DNA of 64,000 nt, taken from positions 62,001 to 126,000 of the forward strand of contig JACQZQ010000113.1 of the NCBI GenBank assembly GCA_016213785.1, written 5' to 3'. Below are positions 13,307 through 33,507 of the stretch, in pieces. A program made the position numbers and the translations under genes. The stretch comes from Acidobacteriota bacterium. Its GTDB lineage: Bacteria; Acidobacteriota; Blastocatellia; Chloracidobacteriales; JADJPF01. How positions within the stretch are numbered: position 1 is the stretch's first letter; the number at the start of each line of letters is the position of its first letter. Under the pieces are notes generated by a model. It saw nothing but the letters and a program-made list of their open reading frames with translations, was not told the origin of the DNA and made no database searches.

Positions 13307-13404
13307 AGCATTACCTCTAAATTTTATGTTAATCTTCTTCCATTAGAGAACGCGAAATTTACCAACAAAATAGGGAGCAAAATAAAAAATATTTGGAGGT
13401 AAAA

Positions 13405-13977
13405 TTGGCAGAGGAAGATATTACTCAACTGTTAGCTAATTGGAATAAAGGTGATGAAGAAGCAAGAGATAAACTAATCCCCCTAGTTACACATGAATTA
13501 AAGAGAATTGCAAACCGTTACCTTTATGGTGAGCGTCAAGAACACACCCTACAAGCAACCGCGCTAATTAATGAAGCTTATATTCGTCTAGTGGATCAAA
13601 AAAATGTAGAATGGCAAAATCGCGCTCATTTCTTTGGCGTTGCGGCTCAACTAATGCGCAGAATCTTAGTTGATTATGCCCGCAATCGTAATGCAGCTAA
13701 ACGAGATGGTCAGCAACGAAAACTTTCTCTAGATGATGTTCTTAATCTCTCAGAAGAGCAAGACCGTAACCTAGTAGCTTTAGATGAGGCGTTAGAACGG
13801 CTTTCTAAGCTATTTCCTGAACGTAGCCAAATTGTTGAACTACGCTTTTTTGGTGGCTTAACTATTGAAGAGACAGCAAAGATTCTTGGTGTTTCTACTG
13901 ATACTGTAAAAGCAGAATGGCGACTAGCAAAGGCTTGGCTTTATCGAGAGATTAGTGTTATTCCAGAACCAGAGTAA
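13405..13977 (+). CDS. ECF RNA polymerase sigma factor (TIGR02999-like)
   Basis: 190 aa. Region 2 contains LKRIANRYLYGERQEHTLQATALINEAY (given in part) and QNRAHFFGVAAQLMRRILVDYAR, signatures of the sigma-70 group tied to kinases in Acidobacteria and Planctomycetes. Region 4 is the helix-turn-helix around FFGGLTIEETAKILGVS. The start is TTG 13405-13407, with GGAGG 5 nt before it. An upstream in-frame TTG at 13393 overlaps that SD. The giant kinase gene follows 91 bp downstream. No anti-sigma gene is present, so control may come from phosphorylation by that kinase (inference from known ECF-kinase pairs). Confidence 0.9.
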   Translation: MAEEDITQLLANWNKGDEEARDKLIPLVTHELKRIANRYLYGERQEHTLQATALINEAYIRLVDQKNVEWQNRAHFFGVAAQLMRRILVDYARNRNAAKRDGQQRKLSLDDVLNLSEEQDRNLVALDEALERLSKLFPERSQIVELRFFGGLTIEETAKILGVSTDTVKAEWRLAKAWLYREISVIPEPE

Positions 13978-14028
13978 CAAATCTAGATTTGTAGCGTTAA
14001 ACTTTAAGGATAGAGCTATGTCTCTACC
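13978..14028 (+). promoter_or_regulatory. Palindrome and hairpin between sigma factor and kinase genes
   Basis: A perfect 14-bp palindrome, CAAATCTAGATTTG, begins directly after the sigma-factor stop (13978-13991). A second hairpin follows: GG-TAGAG (14008-14015) pairs with CTCTA-CC (14022-14028) around CTATGT. These could attenuate or process the sigma/kinase transcript. The second hairpin resembles one at 38946-38973. Confidence 0.4.
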
Positions 14029-14068
14029 CTACTCTATTAAGTTAAAATAGCTAAAACTAGGGAAAGCT

Positions 14069-17000
14069 ATGACCACTCTGCACAAACAAATTGATGAACT
14101 ATTTCTTTATGTTTTGGATATGCTTCCAGAACAAAGAGAGGTATTTTTAGCTAGTCAAGATGCTAGTATACGTAAAGAAATAGAATCCCTACTTCTAGCC
14201 TATAATCAATCAAATAATTTTTTGGATAGCCCTTTAATTGTCCCTCAACTCCCTTTAGAACCTGTAATTGATAAGCTAATTGGACGTACCTTAGGCGATT
14301 TTATTATCCGTGAAAAAATAGGTGAAGGTGCTTTTGGTGCTGTTTATAAGGCTGAACAAATTACTTTAATGCGTGAAGTAGTTATAAAAGTTCTTCATCA
14401 AAAACATCTTGATAATCAAGAAATAATTGAGAGGTTTTTACGTGAAGCCCGCCTAGCATCGCGCCTTGAACACCCATTTACAGCACATATTTATGCTTTT
14501 GGTGCTGAGAGTGATGGGCTACTGTGGACAGCTATGGAAATTGTTCATGGCACTCCTTTAGATAAACTGCTTAAGACTCAAGGGACAATAGAACTTGAAC
14601 GCTTTGTTCCGCTACTTGATAAAATCTGTGAAGTTGTCCAAACCGCTCATGACTGTGGAATAATTCATCGAGACTTAAAACCAGCAAATGTTATGGTTAT
14701 TTCTCGCGCTGGTAGACTTCTTCCTAAACTTCTTGATTTTGGTATTGCTAAAACTCTAGATAGTAATACTAGCTATATTAACAAACTACAGATAGAAAAA
14801 GCTGATGAATTATTAACAGAAGATGATACAAGTAAAACTACAGGGCTACTTGGGTCAACTCCTTATATGCCTGCTGAACAATGGGAAAATGCTTCACAAG
14901 TAGATGCCCGTGCAGATATTTATGCCTTAGGAGTTTTTGCCTATGAGATGTTAGTAGGAAAAAGACCATTTTCTGGAGGCTCACCAGCAAGTTTTTATAA
15001 TTTGTATAAAGAGCATAAAGAAGCACCTGTTCCTAGTTTAGGAAAAGGTTTTCCTACTGCTTTAGACGCTGTAATTGCTAAAGCAATGGCAAAAAAGCCA
15101 GAAGAGCGTTATAAAAGCGCTTTTGAGCTTGCTACAGACTTTCGTCTAGCCGCAGGAATTAGCACTTATGAGGGCGTTTTACCACAGCTTGAAACTCAAC
15201 TCTATGAAAAACTTCTTGCTGCTGCGCCTCAGCCTCTTGCAGAAAGTGTTGCTAGATTTGCTTCTGCTCGTAGTCTACATCAATCTCGCGAACGAATGAT
15301 AAGCATACTTCGAGTAGTAATACGTTACTTAGCTTTACTTGCATTAGCCTCTCGTGCTCAAATTGGTAGCGGAAACAAAAAGGATAGTGAAAAAGTACAA
15401 AAATTTATTCAGAAAATTCGCAAACAAGAATTAAGTGATAAAGAGTGGCTTGAACTTACACAAGAACTTTGTAAACCCTTTGCACTCAAACGTGATGCTT
15501 ATCCAATCCCAGAATTAATCTCGCTATTTTTCCAGCCTAGTAGCACCAGTCAAACCGAGCAATGTAGAGTTTTTGAGTCTTTACTAGAATTTGAAAGGGC
15601 TAACTTACTAGGCGCTACTGAGGAAGAAGTACAAAGAAATATATCTAGTTATTTACCAGAGCTTACTAAAATCCTTCATTCTATTAGTTTTTTACTTGAT
15701 TATCCTTTAGTAGTAAAACGCTTAAACCATATAGAAAAAAGAATGGGAAGAGAATTAAGTTCTATCCAAATAAAACTTAATAAATTATCAGAAACCCAAG
15801 TTGCTTTGCTTGATAGTAGTTTAAGAATGGTTTTATCTCTTTGGCCTTTACTACAAGTTGCTGAACCCTTACCAGGTGCAAGAGAAGAAATCTTTTTTCT
15901 AGCTGGTAAAGGCCGTCATGGTGTAAAACTCATTACCATGCCAACAGGCTTTGAACGACAGGAAGAAAGAGTTTGGGAATGGTTTCAAGCAAATTTCTTT
16001 GATAGCAAAGAAGAATCATTTTTTAATAATCAGCAAGAAAGAACACCTTATTTAGGTTTAATGGCTTTTACTAGCGCAGATGCAGACCTTTTTTTTGGGC
16101 GTGAACGCGATACAGAAGCTTTCTTAAATAGACTTAAAATACAATCACTCCTTGCGATAGTTGGTACTTCTGGGGCAGGGAAGAGTTCATTTTTACAAGC
16201 AGGGGTTTTTGCTGAACTTGCTAATAATTGGCGCACTTTTACACTTAGACCAGGCGCTACACCTGTAGCTACATTGATTGCTAGACTAAATAAAGAATTT
16301 GGGCCTATAGATCAAGAACTAAAAGAACAACTAGCCTTAGATTCAAAAGTGTTAGGTAAATATCTAAAACTAGTGGCAGAAAAACACAATATAACAATTT
16401 TAATTTTTGTTGATCAGTTTGAAGAGCTTTTTACACTTTGTCCTGAATTAGAAGAGCGTCAGTTTTATGCTGCAATGCTAGCTCAAGCTGCACAATCAGC
16501 CGAAGAGCCAATTCGTCTTGTACTAGCCTTAAGAGATGACTTTTTAGTTAGAGCTAAACAATTAACAGCCTTAAAAGATCGTTTAACTCAAGGGCTAGAG
16601 CTTTTAACTACTCCTGCACCAGAAGATTTACTAAGAATTTTAATTACCCCTGCTGAAAGGCTTGGTTATCAATTTGAAGATGAAAATTTAGCTAAAGAAA
16701 TAGTTGCAGAAGTTGTTGACCAAGTGGGAGCATTACCTTTACTTGCTTTTACTGCTGCAAAGCTTTGGGAATTAAGAGATAGACATTTTAAGCAACTACT
16801 TAGAAAGACTTACTTGGGAATGGGTGGGGTAGGCGGTGCATTAGCCCAACATGCTGAACTAATGCTTGGAACAATGAATAATAGCCAGCAACGCCTTGTA
16901 AAAGAAACATTTAGACAATTAGTTACTGGTGAAGGGACTAGAGCCGTTTTAACTAAAAATGAATTAATGCATTTACTAGGAAATAGCCAAGAGGCTGAAA

Positions 17001-19894
17001 GTGTATTAGAAAAGCTAATTGCTGCTAGGCTCTTAGTCGTCTCAGAAGGTGAACTTGGGCAAGAACGTATAGAAATTGTCCATGAAGCTTTATTAATTGC
17101 TTGGCCTAGGCTAGTTCAATGGCAACAAGAAGAAAAAGAAAATATTAGACTTCGCGATCAATTACGTATAGCTTCTAAACAATGGCAAGATAGAGGCAAA
17201 GTAAAAGGTTTACTTTGGCGTGATGAGGCTTTAACAGAATATCGACTCTGGCAATCACGTTATAGCGGTAAATTAACAGAAAGTGAAGAAGCTTTTGTGC
17301 TTTCTAGCTTATCTGAAGCTAAACGAGGTCAACGTAGAACAAGGTTAATCGTATCAGGGATTTTATTAGGTCTAATAGTTGGATTTATTAGCGTTTTTTA
17401 TCAACAACAATTAGCAGAAGAAAGCGCAAAACGAGCCGAAGCTTATGCAAAAAAACTTGAAGTAATCAATAAAGAAGTTGAAGAAAAGGCACAACAAATC
17501 TTAGCCCAAAAACAAATAGCTGAAGATAGTACTGAAAAAGCTAATTTTGAAAAACACCGTGCAGATGAACAACGCCAATTAGCAGAAAGAAATGAAATCC
17601 AAGCTAAAGAACAAACTAAATTAGCAACAGATAGCACTCAAAGGGCTAAACGCCAATTATTAGAACTCTATGAAGAACGTGGTAGAAAAGAAATTCTAGT
17701 AGGTAATCCTATGATTGCAGCACTCTACTTAAGCGAAGCTTATCGCTTGGGTAAAACTAATCCATCATTAAAATATTTACTAGCTGATGCAATGCGTGCT
17801 CTAGACGCTCAAATAATTTCTTTAGAACATGGTAAAGAAAGAGTTTCTTTAGCTGAGTTTAGCCCTGATAGTAGTAGAATCTTAACAATAGGCAATGACG
17901 AAACAATAGCTAGTGAAACTTCTTCTGGTAATGAATCTACAGCTATACTTTGGCAAGCAAGTAATGGAAAACCTATTAAAACTCTCTCAGTATATAGTGG
18001 TAGCGAAGCCTTTGCTCGCTTTAGCCCAAATAACAAGTTAATAGCTATGGCAGGAGGTAATAATTGTAATTGTGTACAAGTTTTTAATTCTCTAGATGGC
18101 AGCCTATTACACACCTTACAAAAACACCCATCAAAAGTTGTCTCAACAAGTTTTAACCCAAAACAAAATCAAATACTTAGCGCTAGTCAAGATGGTACTA
18201 TAAATATTTGGAATTCTAATGGAAAATATTTATTCTCCTTAAAAAAACAGACAGAAGAGAAACGAACTAGCTTTTTATACTTGGCTGAATTTGACCCTCA
18301 AGGTACAAAAGTAGTAAGTATAGATGGTGAGGGTGTAAAAATCTGGAGCTTAAAAGATAAAACTCTATTAGGTAAAATCGATTATGAGAAAAGAATAAAC
18401 TCGGTTACTTTTAGCCCTGATGGAACAAGAATTTTAACTGCTAGTGAAGATAATACTGCAAAAATTTGGGATAGCGAAACAGGTAAATTAATTATTAGTC
18501 TAGAAGCTCATAAGGGTAATGTTTATTGGGCTGAATTTAATTCTTTAGGTACAAAGGTTGTTACTGCAAGCGCTGATAGCAGCGCAAAGATTTGGGATGT
18601 AAGTAACGGAAAAAATGTAAGCTCAGTAATTTCTTTAGAAGGACATCTAGAAATTGTTAACACTGCTCATTTTACGCCTGATAATACAAGAATTGTAACT
18701 ACTAGTAGTGATTTTACTGCAAAGATTTGGGATAGTGCTAGCGGGCTACCTTTAGCAACTTTTCAAGGGCATAGAGGAAATGTTTATAGTGCTGCTATTA
18801 GCCATAATGGTAAAAGGGTCATTACTGCTAGTAGCGATGGAAGTGCTAAGATTTGGGATACTTCTTACGATAAACTAAAACTAACTTATGAGGCTAATCA
18901 AGTTCGGGATTTATACGGGCTTTTTGCTGGTAAGGAACCTTGGGTTATTACTACTGATAGCAGTGATAGAGTAAAAATTTGGGATATTTTAAGTAGTAAT
19001 CTTTTAGTAGAGCTTAATAGCCCTATTATAGGTATTACTCTAGTCGAAATTAATCCTAATGCTACCGCTTTACTTACAGTTGATTATAGAAATTCTATCA
19101 AAATATGGGATCTAAAGTCAGGAAATGTTTTACTTAACCTAGAAGGCAATACTGCATCCTTTAGCTTTGATAACAAGCATATTGCTACTTTTACTAAAGA
19201 CAAAAATATTAAAATTTGGAATAGTGAGACAGCAAAATTAGAAAAAACTTTTCCTAGTAACTTAAATACAGTTAATTTTATTAGATTTAGCCCTAATGGT
19301 AACTATTTAATTACTGCTGGCACTATAGGTAAGGAAAGAAATATCCAACCAGTTGCACAAATTTTAGAAATTGCTACAGGAAAAATTCTAACTTCTTTTA
19401 CTAACCATCAAAGAAAAATTACTTCTGTGGAATTTAGCCCTGATGGAACTAGAGTTGTTACAGTAAGCGAAGATACAGTAAAAATATGGGATGCTAAAAA
19501 CGGTAAAGCCTTACCCTCTTTAGAAGACGATAAAGGAATAGTTTATTTGGTACATTTTAGCCCTGATAACACAAAACTACTTACAGTTAATAATGATAAG
19601 ACAGTAAAACTCTGGGATAGTGCTACAGGTCGTATGCTTGCCTCACTTGAAGGGCATAGAGGTAGTATTGATAATGCTTATTTTAGTAATGATAGTAAAC
19701 AGGTTATTACTACAAGTCGAGATAAAACAGTAAAAGTTTGGGATGTAAGCTTAGAGACTCGCTCAGCAGAAGAAATTTCAAAATTAGTTAGCCGTTTAGT
19801 TCCTTTTAGATTAAATGAAAGTCTTTTAATTTCTACTAAACCTAATGATAGCCATATAAATCTAGCAATCCCTTCTGTTAGAAAAAGAAAGTAG
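14069..19894 (+). CDS. Giant Ser/Thr kinase - nSTAND NTPase - WD40 protein
   Basis: 1941 aa. Residues 1-55 (LFLYVLDMLPEQREVFL) match the N-terminal segment of ECF-associated kinases. The kinase domain spans about 75-350: GEGAFGAVYKAE, VIKVL (K107), HRDLKPANVM (D202), DFGIAK. After a helical linker, an nSTAND1-type NTPase begins near 670 (YLGLMAFTSADADLFFGRE), with Walker A GTSGAGKSS near 697 and Walker B ILIFVDQFEELF near 777. One TM lies at about 1093-1112, then a coiled coil (EEKAQQILAQKQIAED). About 15 WD40 units follow (for example TASEDNTAKIWD), enough for two seven-bladed propellers. The propellers probably sense a ligand and the NTPase may act as a switch coupled to the kinase. It pairs with the sigma factor at 13405. 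Confidence 0.92.
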   Translation: MTTLHKQIDELFLYVLDMLPEQREVFLASQDASIRKEIESLLLAYNQSNNFLDSPLIVPQLPLEPVIDKLIGRTLGDFIIREKIGEGAFGAVYKAEQITLMREVVIKVLHQKHLDNQEIIERFLREARLASRLEHPFTAHIYAFGAESDGLLWTAMEIVHGTPLDKLLKTQGTIELERFVPLLDKICEVVQTAHDCGIIHRDLKPANVMVISRAGRLLPKLLDFGIAKTLDSNTSYINKLQIEKADELLTEDDTSKTTGLLGSTPYMPAEQWENASQVDARADIYALGVFAYEMLVGKRPFSGGSPASFYNLYKEHKEAPVPSLGKGFPTALDAVIAKAMAKKPEERYKSAFELATDFRLAAGISTYEGVLPQLETQLYEKLLAAAPQPLAESVARFASARSLHQSRERMISILRVVIRYLALLALASRAQIGSGNKKDSEKVQKFIQKIRKQELSDKEWLELTQELCKPFALKRDAYPIPELISLFFQPSSTSQTEQCRVFESLLEFERANLLGATEEEVQRNISSYLPELTKILHSISFLLDYPLVVKRLNHIEKRMGRELSSIQIKLNKLSETQVALLDSSLRMVLSLWPLLQVAEPLPGAREEIFFLAGKGRHGVKLITMPTGFERQEERVWEWFQANFFDSKEESFFNNQQERTPYLGLMAFTSADADLFFGRERDTEAFLNRLKIQSLLAIVGTSGAGKSSFLQAGVFAELANNWRTFTLRPGATPVATLIARLNKEFGPIDQELKEQLALDSKVLGKYLKLVAEKHNITILIFVDQFEELFTLCPELEERQFYAAMLAQAAQSAEEPIRLVLALRDDFLVRAKQLTALKDRLTQGLELLTTPAPEDLLRILITPAERLGYQFEDENLAKEIVAEVVDQVGALPLLAFTAAKLWELRDRHFKQLLRKTYLGMGGVGGALAQHAELMLGTMNNSQQRLVKETFRQLVTGEGTRAVLTKNELMHLLGNSQEAESVLEKLIAARLLVVSEGELGQERIEIVHEALLIAWPRLVQWQQEEKENIRLRDQLRIASKQWQDRGKVKGLLWRDEALTEYRLWQSRYSGKLTESEEAFVLSSLSEAKRGQRRTRLIVSGILLGLIVGFISVFYQQQLAEESAKRAEAYAKKLEVINKEVEEKAQQILAQKQIAEDSTEKANFEKHRADEQRQLAERNEIQAKEQTKLATDSTQRAKRQLLELYEERGRKEILVGNPMIAALYLSEAYRLGKTNPSLKYLLADAMRALDAQIISLEHGKERVSLAEFSPDSSRILTIGNDETIASETSSGNESTAILWQASNGKPIKTLSVYSGSEAFARFSPNNKLIAMAGGNNCNCVQVFNSLDGSLLHTLQKHPSKVVSTSFNPKQNQILSASQDGTINIWNSNGKYLFSLKKQTEEKRTSFLYLAEFDPQGTKVVSIDGEGVKIWSLKDKTLLGKIDYEKRINSVTFSPDGTRILTASEDNTAKIWDSETGKLIISLEAHKGNVYWAEFNSLGTKVVTASADSSAKIWDVSNGKNVSSVISLEGHLEIVNTAHFTPDNTRIVTTSSDFTAKIWDSASGLPLATFQGHRGNVYSAAISHNGKRVITASSDGSAKIWDTSYDKLKLTYEANQVRDLYGLFAGKEPWVITTDSSDRVKIWDILSSNLLVELNSPIIGITLVEINPNATALLTVDYRNSIKIWDLKSGNVLLNLEGNTASFSFDNKHIATFTKDKNIKIWNSETAKLEKTFPSNLNTVNFIRFSPNGNYLITAGTIGKERNIQPVAQILEIATGKILTSFTNHQRKITSVEFSPDGTRVVTVSEDTVKIWDAKNGKALPSLEDDKGIVYLVHFSPDNTKLLTVNNDKTVKLWDSATGRMLASLEGHRGSIDNAYFSNDSKQVITTSRDKTVKVWDVSLETRSAEEISKLVSRLVPFRLNESLLISTKPNDSHINLAIPSVRKRK

Positions 19895-32919: not shown

Positions 32920-33507
32920 TTAAATATTTTTCTTTAATTCATTATAAAGCCACATTTTAGCTATTCTCCATTCTCGCATAACTGTAATAGCTGCAATATC
33001 TAAAGCTTTAGCAGTTTCTTCAACCGAAAGACCTGCAAAAAATCGTAGTTCAACAATTTGGCTTTGTCGTGCATCTAGTTGGGCAAGACGACTTAGCGCA
33101 TCATCTAAAACTATTAAGTCAACTCCTTGTTGGTCAGATAGGTTAACTACTTCATCAATAGAGACTTTTATCATATCGCCGCCTCTTTTATCAGCAGTTC
33201 GACTCCGAGCATGATCTACTAGTACTCGCCGCATCATTTGAGCCGCAACTCCATAGAATTGGGCGCGATTTTGCCAGGAAATATCTTTTTGATTAATAAG
33301 TTTTAAGTAAATTTCATTAACTAATGCAGTAGGTTGTAAGGTATGATCTCGTCGCTCATAACGTAAATAATTAGCTGCACGAGAATGCAGTTCTTGGTAA
33401 ACCAAATTTAGTAATTTAGAATGTGCCTCTGTATCTCCTGTAGTCCATTTATTGAGTAATTCTGTTACATCTTCTGGTTCTTGATTCTTAAATACAGAAT
33501 CTTCCAT
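32920..33507 (-). CDS. ECF RNA polymerase sigma factor (TIGR02999-like), orphan
   Basis: 195 aa, a clear paralogue of the sigma factor at 13405 (shared YERRDHTLQPTALVNEIYLKL, SWQNRAQFYGVAAQMMRR, QIVELRFFAGLSVEETAKAL). Both region 2 and region 4 are complete. AAGGA lies about 10 nt before the ATG. No kinase or anti-sigma gene is linked. It is divergent from the pilus-like operon across a 586-bp gap full of inverted repeats, so it may control itself or those genes (inference). Confidence 0.9.
   Translation of the reverse strand: MEDSVFKNQEPEDVTELLNKWTTGDTEAHSKLLNLVYQELHSRAANYLRYERRDHTLQPTALVNEIYLKLINQKDISWQNRAQFYGVAAQMMRRVLVDHARSRTADKRGGDMIKVSIDEVVNLSDQQGVDLIVLDDALSRLAQLDARQSQIVELRFFAGLSVEETAKALDIAAITVMREWRIAKMWLYNELKKNI

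Follow-up and report, generated by a model that had tools for sequence, protein, structure and literature searches.

A putative sigma-docking segment on a kinase-nSTAND1-WD40 chain beside an ECF43-type sigma gene of an Acidobacteriota bacterium

How does a sigma factor that has to be phosphorylated find its own kinase in a cell full of kinases? The question is raised by a locus in a 64,000-nucleotide stretch of a Blastocatellia genome (contig JACQZQ010000113.1, positions 62,001 to 126,000; hereafter the window), where an extracytoplasmic function (ECF) sigma gene of the TIGR02999 or ECF43 type is directly followed by one long chain that joins a Ser/Thr kinase, an nSTAND1 NTPase and WD40 repeats. 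The 6.4-Mb window genome has 170 PF00069 matches, a very large set of Hanks kinases, and 14 TIGR02999 sigma factors over the cut-off, of the class that requires phosphorylation. The chain begins with a segment of about 55 residues that accompanies such sigma genes across genomes. On balance, we think it probable that sigma gene and chain form a phospho-activated circuit of the ECF43 type whose sensor is unusual, that the segment acts as a portable docking module, and that a stand-alone kinase-nSTAND1-WD40 protein came to control transcription when it acquired the segment and the sigma gene.

The sigma factor and the N-terminal segment

The sigma gene (13405–13977, + strand) was delimited by profile scores and start-codon context. 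Its product scores 219 bits against TIGR02999 (curated cut-off 126) and 191 bits against PF07638, and a TTG start at 13405, 12 bases inside the program's open reading frame (ORF), was chosen with a Shine-Dalgarno-like GGAGG at 13395–13399, in line with the start given in the earlier note. Two papers describe ECF43 factors as having lost the acidic contact of sigma2.2 with core RNA polymerase and as carrying a Thr in its place that the kinase next to them phosphorylates, which has been demonstrated for EcfP and EcfK (PMC13147305, PMC8999054); in EcfK the linker holds additional phosphosites (PMC13147305). In the window sigma the acidic contact is replaced by QATA, within the motif QATALINE (13552–13575, + strand), and alignment places the predicted phosphosite T52 (codon 13558–13560) at the position given for EcfK T51 in PMC13147305. 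The pattern is general among 50 aligned sigma rows from the window genome and seven related ones (one gene is duplicated, L129/L151): at the third position of the motif 45 rows have T and 5 have S, and acidic residues occupy the fourth in 1 row and the first in 2. The acidic pair is thus replaced and a Thr is present, a Hanks kinase adjoins, and no anti-sigma occurs among the seven neighbouring proteins scanned with Pfam, in agreement with an earlier note made from the DNA alone. Because QATA puts T52 at the site phosphorylated in EcfP and EcfK, the predicted kinase-to-sigma step would be the established mechanism of the class. The earlier proposal that the kinase phosphorylates the sigma factor is therefore well supported by class: the motif is ECF43-type with Thr, a Hanks kinase adjoins, and the homology of the chain to PknS, a proven kinase, extends into the segment.

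The segment itself (about aa 3–57 of the chain; 14075–14239, + strand) had been overlooked, as had a domain of about 270 aa between kinase and nSTAND1. A profile made from ten other sigma-adjoining kinases of the same genome, with the window excluded, gives 40 bits on the first ~60 residues of the chain. A second profile, A2, built from 11 segment rows of the window genome (G000), was compared with 177,635 PDB sequences and returned a single significant match, residues 9–56 of 9EED_A (E 4.8e-5). 9EED is PknS, and a phmmer search with residues 1–365 of the window chain likewise gave a PknS alignment beginning at residue 6; the window segment alone (80 aa), in a single-sequence search of PDB sequences, had no match. 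The PknS authors report this N-terminal segment as invisible in the crystal and give it no function, remarking that it 'may play a functional role' (PMC13147305). No Pfam family matched more than two of 46 segment members, and those weakly. AlphaFold2 predicts three helices, at residues 3–16, 20–28 and 32–53, with a mean pLDDT of 81. In the literature consulted, we found no paper that assigns the segment a function and none on an ECF43 kinase that carries nSTAND1.

Association and co-divergence of segment and sigma

To place the segment in genomic context, we used 76 of 81 A2 segment rows from eight Blastocatellia genomes (five with E > 1e-4 were excluded) and the 66 TIGR02999 rows over the cut-off in the same genomes. 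A TIGR02999 sigma gene stands no more than 486 bp from 51 of the 76 segments, in every case on the segment's upstream side; 45 of these segments follow the sigma gene on the same strand and 6 are divergent from it. Seen from the other side, 51/66 sigmas have a paired segment. Excluding the window genome, the source of the profile, leaves 41/59 segments and 41/52 sigmas paired. Six further segments lie 2.8–3.9 kb from a sigma gene: one belongs to a tandem second kinase, and in the other five the kinase and sigma genes are arranged tail-to-tail or divergently. In the window genome the segment has 17 matches, against 170 for PF00069. One sigma-paired kinase of that genome (L023:6985–10602, + strand, contig C78) is broken by an in-frame stop, either a pseudogene or a sequencing error.

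The association extends beyond the class. Eight myxobacterial-type metagenome-assembled genomes (MAGs) were picked solely for carrying a relative of the window chain (8 of the 9 non-Blastocatellia genomes with one, that of L077 being excluded). Segment and sigma are both present in three of them (G061, G064, G065), and neither was found in the other five, MAG completeness not being stated. All six segments share a contig with a sigma gene, three within 1 kb and three at 2.8–3.3 kb, and one of the six over-cut-off sigmas has no segment on its contig.

Although its usual position is directly before the kinase domain, the segment is not tied to it. Pfam scans confirmed the following architectures. 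In L126 about 680 aa separate the segment, at the N-terminus, from the kinase, and in two chains of different families (L105:1975–5919 and L166:2433–6566) with Reg_prop, two-component-regulator-propeller repeats, the kinase is followed by two tandem segments at the C-terminus; each of these chains is divergent from an adjoining ECF43-type sigma gene. In a 690-aa frame of the window genome (L028:7596–9668, − strand, contig C21), a response-regulator receiver is fused to a Hanks kinase and a sigma factor of the ECF43 type (motif QSTALINE). No segment was seen in this single case, as would be expected if the segment served only to bring kinase and sigma together. The fusion stands directly beside a hybrid histidine kinase gene, an arrangement by which a two-component signal would reach a sigma factor via a Ser/Thr kinase within one chain.

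We next asked which part of the kinase chain diverges with the sigma factor. Forty-six pairs were used, with both genes called, less than 1000 bp apart and a first segment match above 19 bits (L105, L125, L133, L136, L150 and L154 were left out). Distances of sigma and segment correlate with r 0.548, a value reached by 0/2000 global and 0/2000 within-genome permutations. The correlation of sigma with the kinase domain is lower (r 0.366), and that of segment with kinase domain is the lowest of the three (r 0.196; 59/2000 permutations). The order held when the ten most divergent sigmas were removed (0.418 for sigma and segment vs 0.350 for sigma and kinase) and in 41 non-redundant pairs (0.499 vs 0.303). 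Of 20 kinase blocks of 55 columns, none exceeded 0.45 against sigma; that maximum fell in the block adjoining the segment, and later blocks gave 0.16–0.34.

Several observations weigh against a docking role. The predicted fold has no PDB counterpart: Foldseek gave 24 matches, all insignificant, the best with E 4.8. The correlation of sigma with kinase is itself above chance, being reached in 1/2000 within-genome permutations, and the window's own row is weak, at 0.15 for sigma and segment vs 0.43 for sigma and kinase. The DNA that codes for the segment is usually nearest the sigma gene, and since the adjoining kinase block is also the highest, linkage may cause part of the co-divergence. In six pairs whose segment lies kilobases from the sigma gene, the mean row correlation is 0.32, vs 0.33 for the rest, a value only modestly above random (26/1000 draws reach it). 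For 25 of the 76 segments there is no sigma gene within 1 kb, and for 19, of which some are near contig ends, there is none within 4 kb either. For the MAGs, the three-of-eight coincidence is expected by chance about once in 56. Taken together, the sequence comparisons back a link between segment and sigma, short of proof, with simple linkage as a possible partial cause.

The same data bear on an alternative in which the circuit is an ordinary ECF43 one and the segment regulates the kinase itself, by autoinhibition or dimerisation, rather than docking the sigma. Its usual place directly before the kinase domain fits such a role, as do the 19 segments with no sigma gene within 4 kb. The segment can, however, lie about 680 aa from the kinase or at the C-terminus of the chain, it follows the presence of sigma across genomes, and its correlation with the kinase domain is the lowest of the three. 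We regard this account as unlikely. A second alternative, that the segment is an anti-sigma-like domain which keeps the sigma inactive until the kinase phosphorylates it, would suit a small, helical, sigma-paired element in a neighbourhood where the scan found no separate anti-sigma. An anti-sigma fold was nevertheless rejected, as no anti-sigma domain appears even among the 24 insignificant Foldseek matches, and EcfP is described as intrinsically inactive unless phosphorylated (PMC8999054); we consider this alternative improbable.

The window holds a second TIGR02999 sigma gene (32920–33507, − strand; L021) with a QPTA motif and no adjoining kinase gene, and a close copy stands in similar surroundings in a genome of the same genus (L120). 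This sigma is a candidate target of segment-bearing kinases that have no adjoining sigma gene.

The chain and its relatives

The chain of 1941 aa (14069–19894, + strand) starts 91 bases after the sigma stop codon, on the same strand. Profiles, motifs and hydropathy confirm the order of sigma, kinase, STAND NTPase, transmembrane helix and WD40 repeats that had been read from the DNA. Behind the segment, the Hanks-type Ser/Thr kinase domain (aa 80–348; 14306–15112) has a Pkinase match and the kinase loop, HRD and DFG motifs. The alpha-then-beta domain that follows (aa about 376–644; 15194–16000) is predicted with confidence (pLDDT 86, pTM 0.84) and matches no Pfam family above its cut-off and no PDB fold at E < 0.001. 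The nSTAND1 NTPase (aa 660–1044; 16046–17200) was called intact in the earlier note; it scores 324 bits against PF20703 and has Walker A, Walker B, RDD, GALPLL and HEALL motifs. The only strong hydrophobic stretch is a predicted transmembrane helix (aa 1093–1111; 17345–17401) with a basic N-terminal flank. A coiled coil, as read from the sequence, precedes the WD40 repeats (17789–19783; models span aa about 1241–1905). Of the roughly 15 WD40 units claimed before, 12 are found by pattern, and about 15 are reached only when degenerate ones are counted by eye; a double propeller is compatible with the number. All of these parts are on the + strand.

Relatives of the chain were sought in 58 relatives and in GTDB contigs. 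Those found, in Myxococcota MAGs and within the same Blastocatellia family, are kinase-nSTAND1 chains that stand alone, and most of them carry WD40 repeats. Kinase, middle domain and nSTAND1 follow one another as in the window chain, at 25–41% identity in the middle domain and 36–59% in nSTAND1 (63% over one cut end). The undescribed middle domain is common to about 20 chains of Blastocatellia and Myxococcota, and a search of 396 genomes of the phylum found it only in the window genome and in G003, of the same family.

These relatives differ from the window chain at the very point of interest. The segment is absent from 19/19 other distinct chains with an N-terminus, and no TIGR02999-type sigma gene was found around any of the 19, in fetched flanks of up to 6 kb that were often ended by contig ends. 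The flanks were searched first in called ORFs, where the caller misses some genes in GC-rich DNA, and then in all six frames; the six-frame scan recovered both segment and sigma in 7/7 control loci. Three sibling chains of the window genome start directly at the kinase and have other, unlike genes beside them instead of a sigma. In one of these siblings (L033:5024–10642, − strand), the WD40 repeats are followed by a C-terminal domain of the formylglycine-enzyme type (PF03781, residues 1653–1869). Within the family, then, only the window member has both segment and sigma. The tree places the window chain, together with its same-genus ortholog, inside the group of the other chains (supports 98/98 and 100/100), so that the simplest account is a gain of segment and sigma on their branch.

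That ortholog, 81% identical, lies on a 4.3-kb contig that ends inside the middle domain, and its 5' part is not in the assembly, where neither a 5' half of high identity nor a sigma above 58% occurs. Two segment-bearing contig ends considered as its missing half were rejected as other genes (29–33% identical). The exact pair of sigma and chain was not found in relatives, and the nSTAND1 profile is positive in 1/52 distinct segment-bearing chains, that of the window; the sensor part of our reading consequently rests on one locus. The nSTAND1 profile was built from the window chain family and may miss remote STAND domains, and contig ends truncate a few of the chains. Co-conservation, whose absence would by the earlier note refute its reading, thus fails for the exact pair (0/19 other chains have a sigma in their flanks, and the ortholog is cut before its 5' part) and is strong for the module of segment and sigma.

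The earlier note had also raised a role in phage defence or cell death. Such a device, with the sigma gene as a neighbour or minor part, would accord with the nSTAND1 or related STAND NTPases of conflict systems proposed in PMC7159879 and PMC10907252. No defence gene occurs among the neighbours scanned, however, and the 25 PADLOC matches listed, out of 33, cover the kinase stretch only, with no model, such as one for an Avs-like anti-phage STAND, on the NTPase or sensor. The segment, moreover, links the chain to ECF43 kinases, and the three siblings adjoin other genes. The defence role is unsupported, and we judge it very improbable. Equally doubtful is the notion that the two genes are chance neighbours and that the true partner of the sigma is a segment kinase elsewhere: the pair was not found in relatives and the genome does carry segment kinases away from sigma genes, but only the window member of the family has both elements, and its short same-strand gap is the commonest arrangement (45/51).

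A perfect 14-bp palindrome, CAAATCTAGATTTG, read off the DNA, lies directly 3' of the sigma stop codon (13978–13991), and a promoter scan found 21 candidates vs 23.4 in shuffles.

A proposed circuit and what it would mean

Returning to the docking reading, we propose the following circuit. From domain knowledge, the WD40 repeats, which are probably periplasmic because of the basic flank of the transmembrane helix, would bind a ligand, and nSTAND1 inside the cell would convert the signal into oligomerisation and so amplify it. The activated kinase would hold the sigma factor through the three-helix segment, as the comparisons suggest, and would phosphorylate Thr52, supplying the negative charge needed for binding core RNA polymerase. 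A pre-existing stand-alone kinase-nSTAND1-WD40 protein would have gained the segment together with the sigma gene.

The closest known systems are the ECF43 pairs PknS-EcfK of Xanthomonas citri and PknT-EcfP of Vibrio parahaemolyticus, which, like the window locus, combine a sigma carrying a Thr for the acidic sigma2.2 contact with an adjacent Hanks kinase. PknS, for which alone the comparison was made, has a homologous N-terminal segment; it bears periplasmic tetratricopeptide repeats where the window chain has the undescribed domain, nSTAND1 and WD40. By analogy only, APAF-1-like STAND proteins, as presented in PMC7159879, also join WD40, a STAND NTPase and an effector in one chain. The window chain differs from them in a predicted transmembrane helix between NTPase and propellers and in having as effector a kinase beside a sigma gene. 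The locus is therefore of a known kind, an ECF43 kinase-sigma pair, with a sensor unlike that of the other 51 segment-bearing chains examined; the exact pair is a single locus and the module is general.

We advance more tentatively a wider claim: that this module without a Pfam match is a general address tag, docking Hanks kinases of several phyla on ECF43 sigma factors and moving between chains, with the window as a natural rewiring of a stand-alone nSTAND1-WD40 kinase. The comparison suggests a specific, testable role for the N-terminal segment of PknS, and the window genome offers natural controls: three paralogous kinases and one kinase-sigma fusion, all without the segment. If the claim is true, the wiring of kinases to sigma factors could be predicted from sequence by means of the segment, which would also be usable as a part for building phospho-controlled sigma factors.

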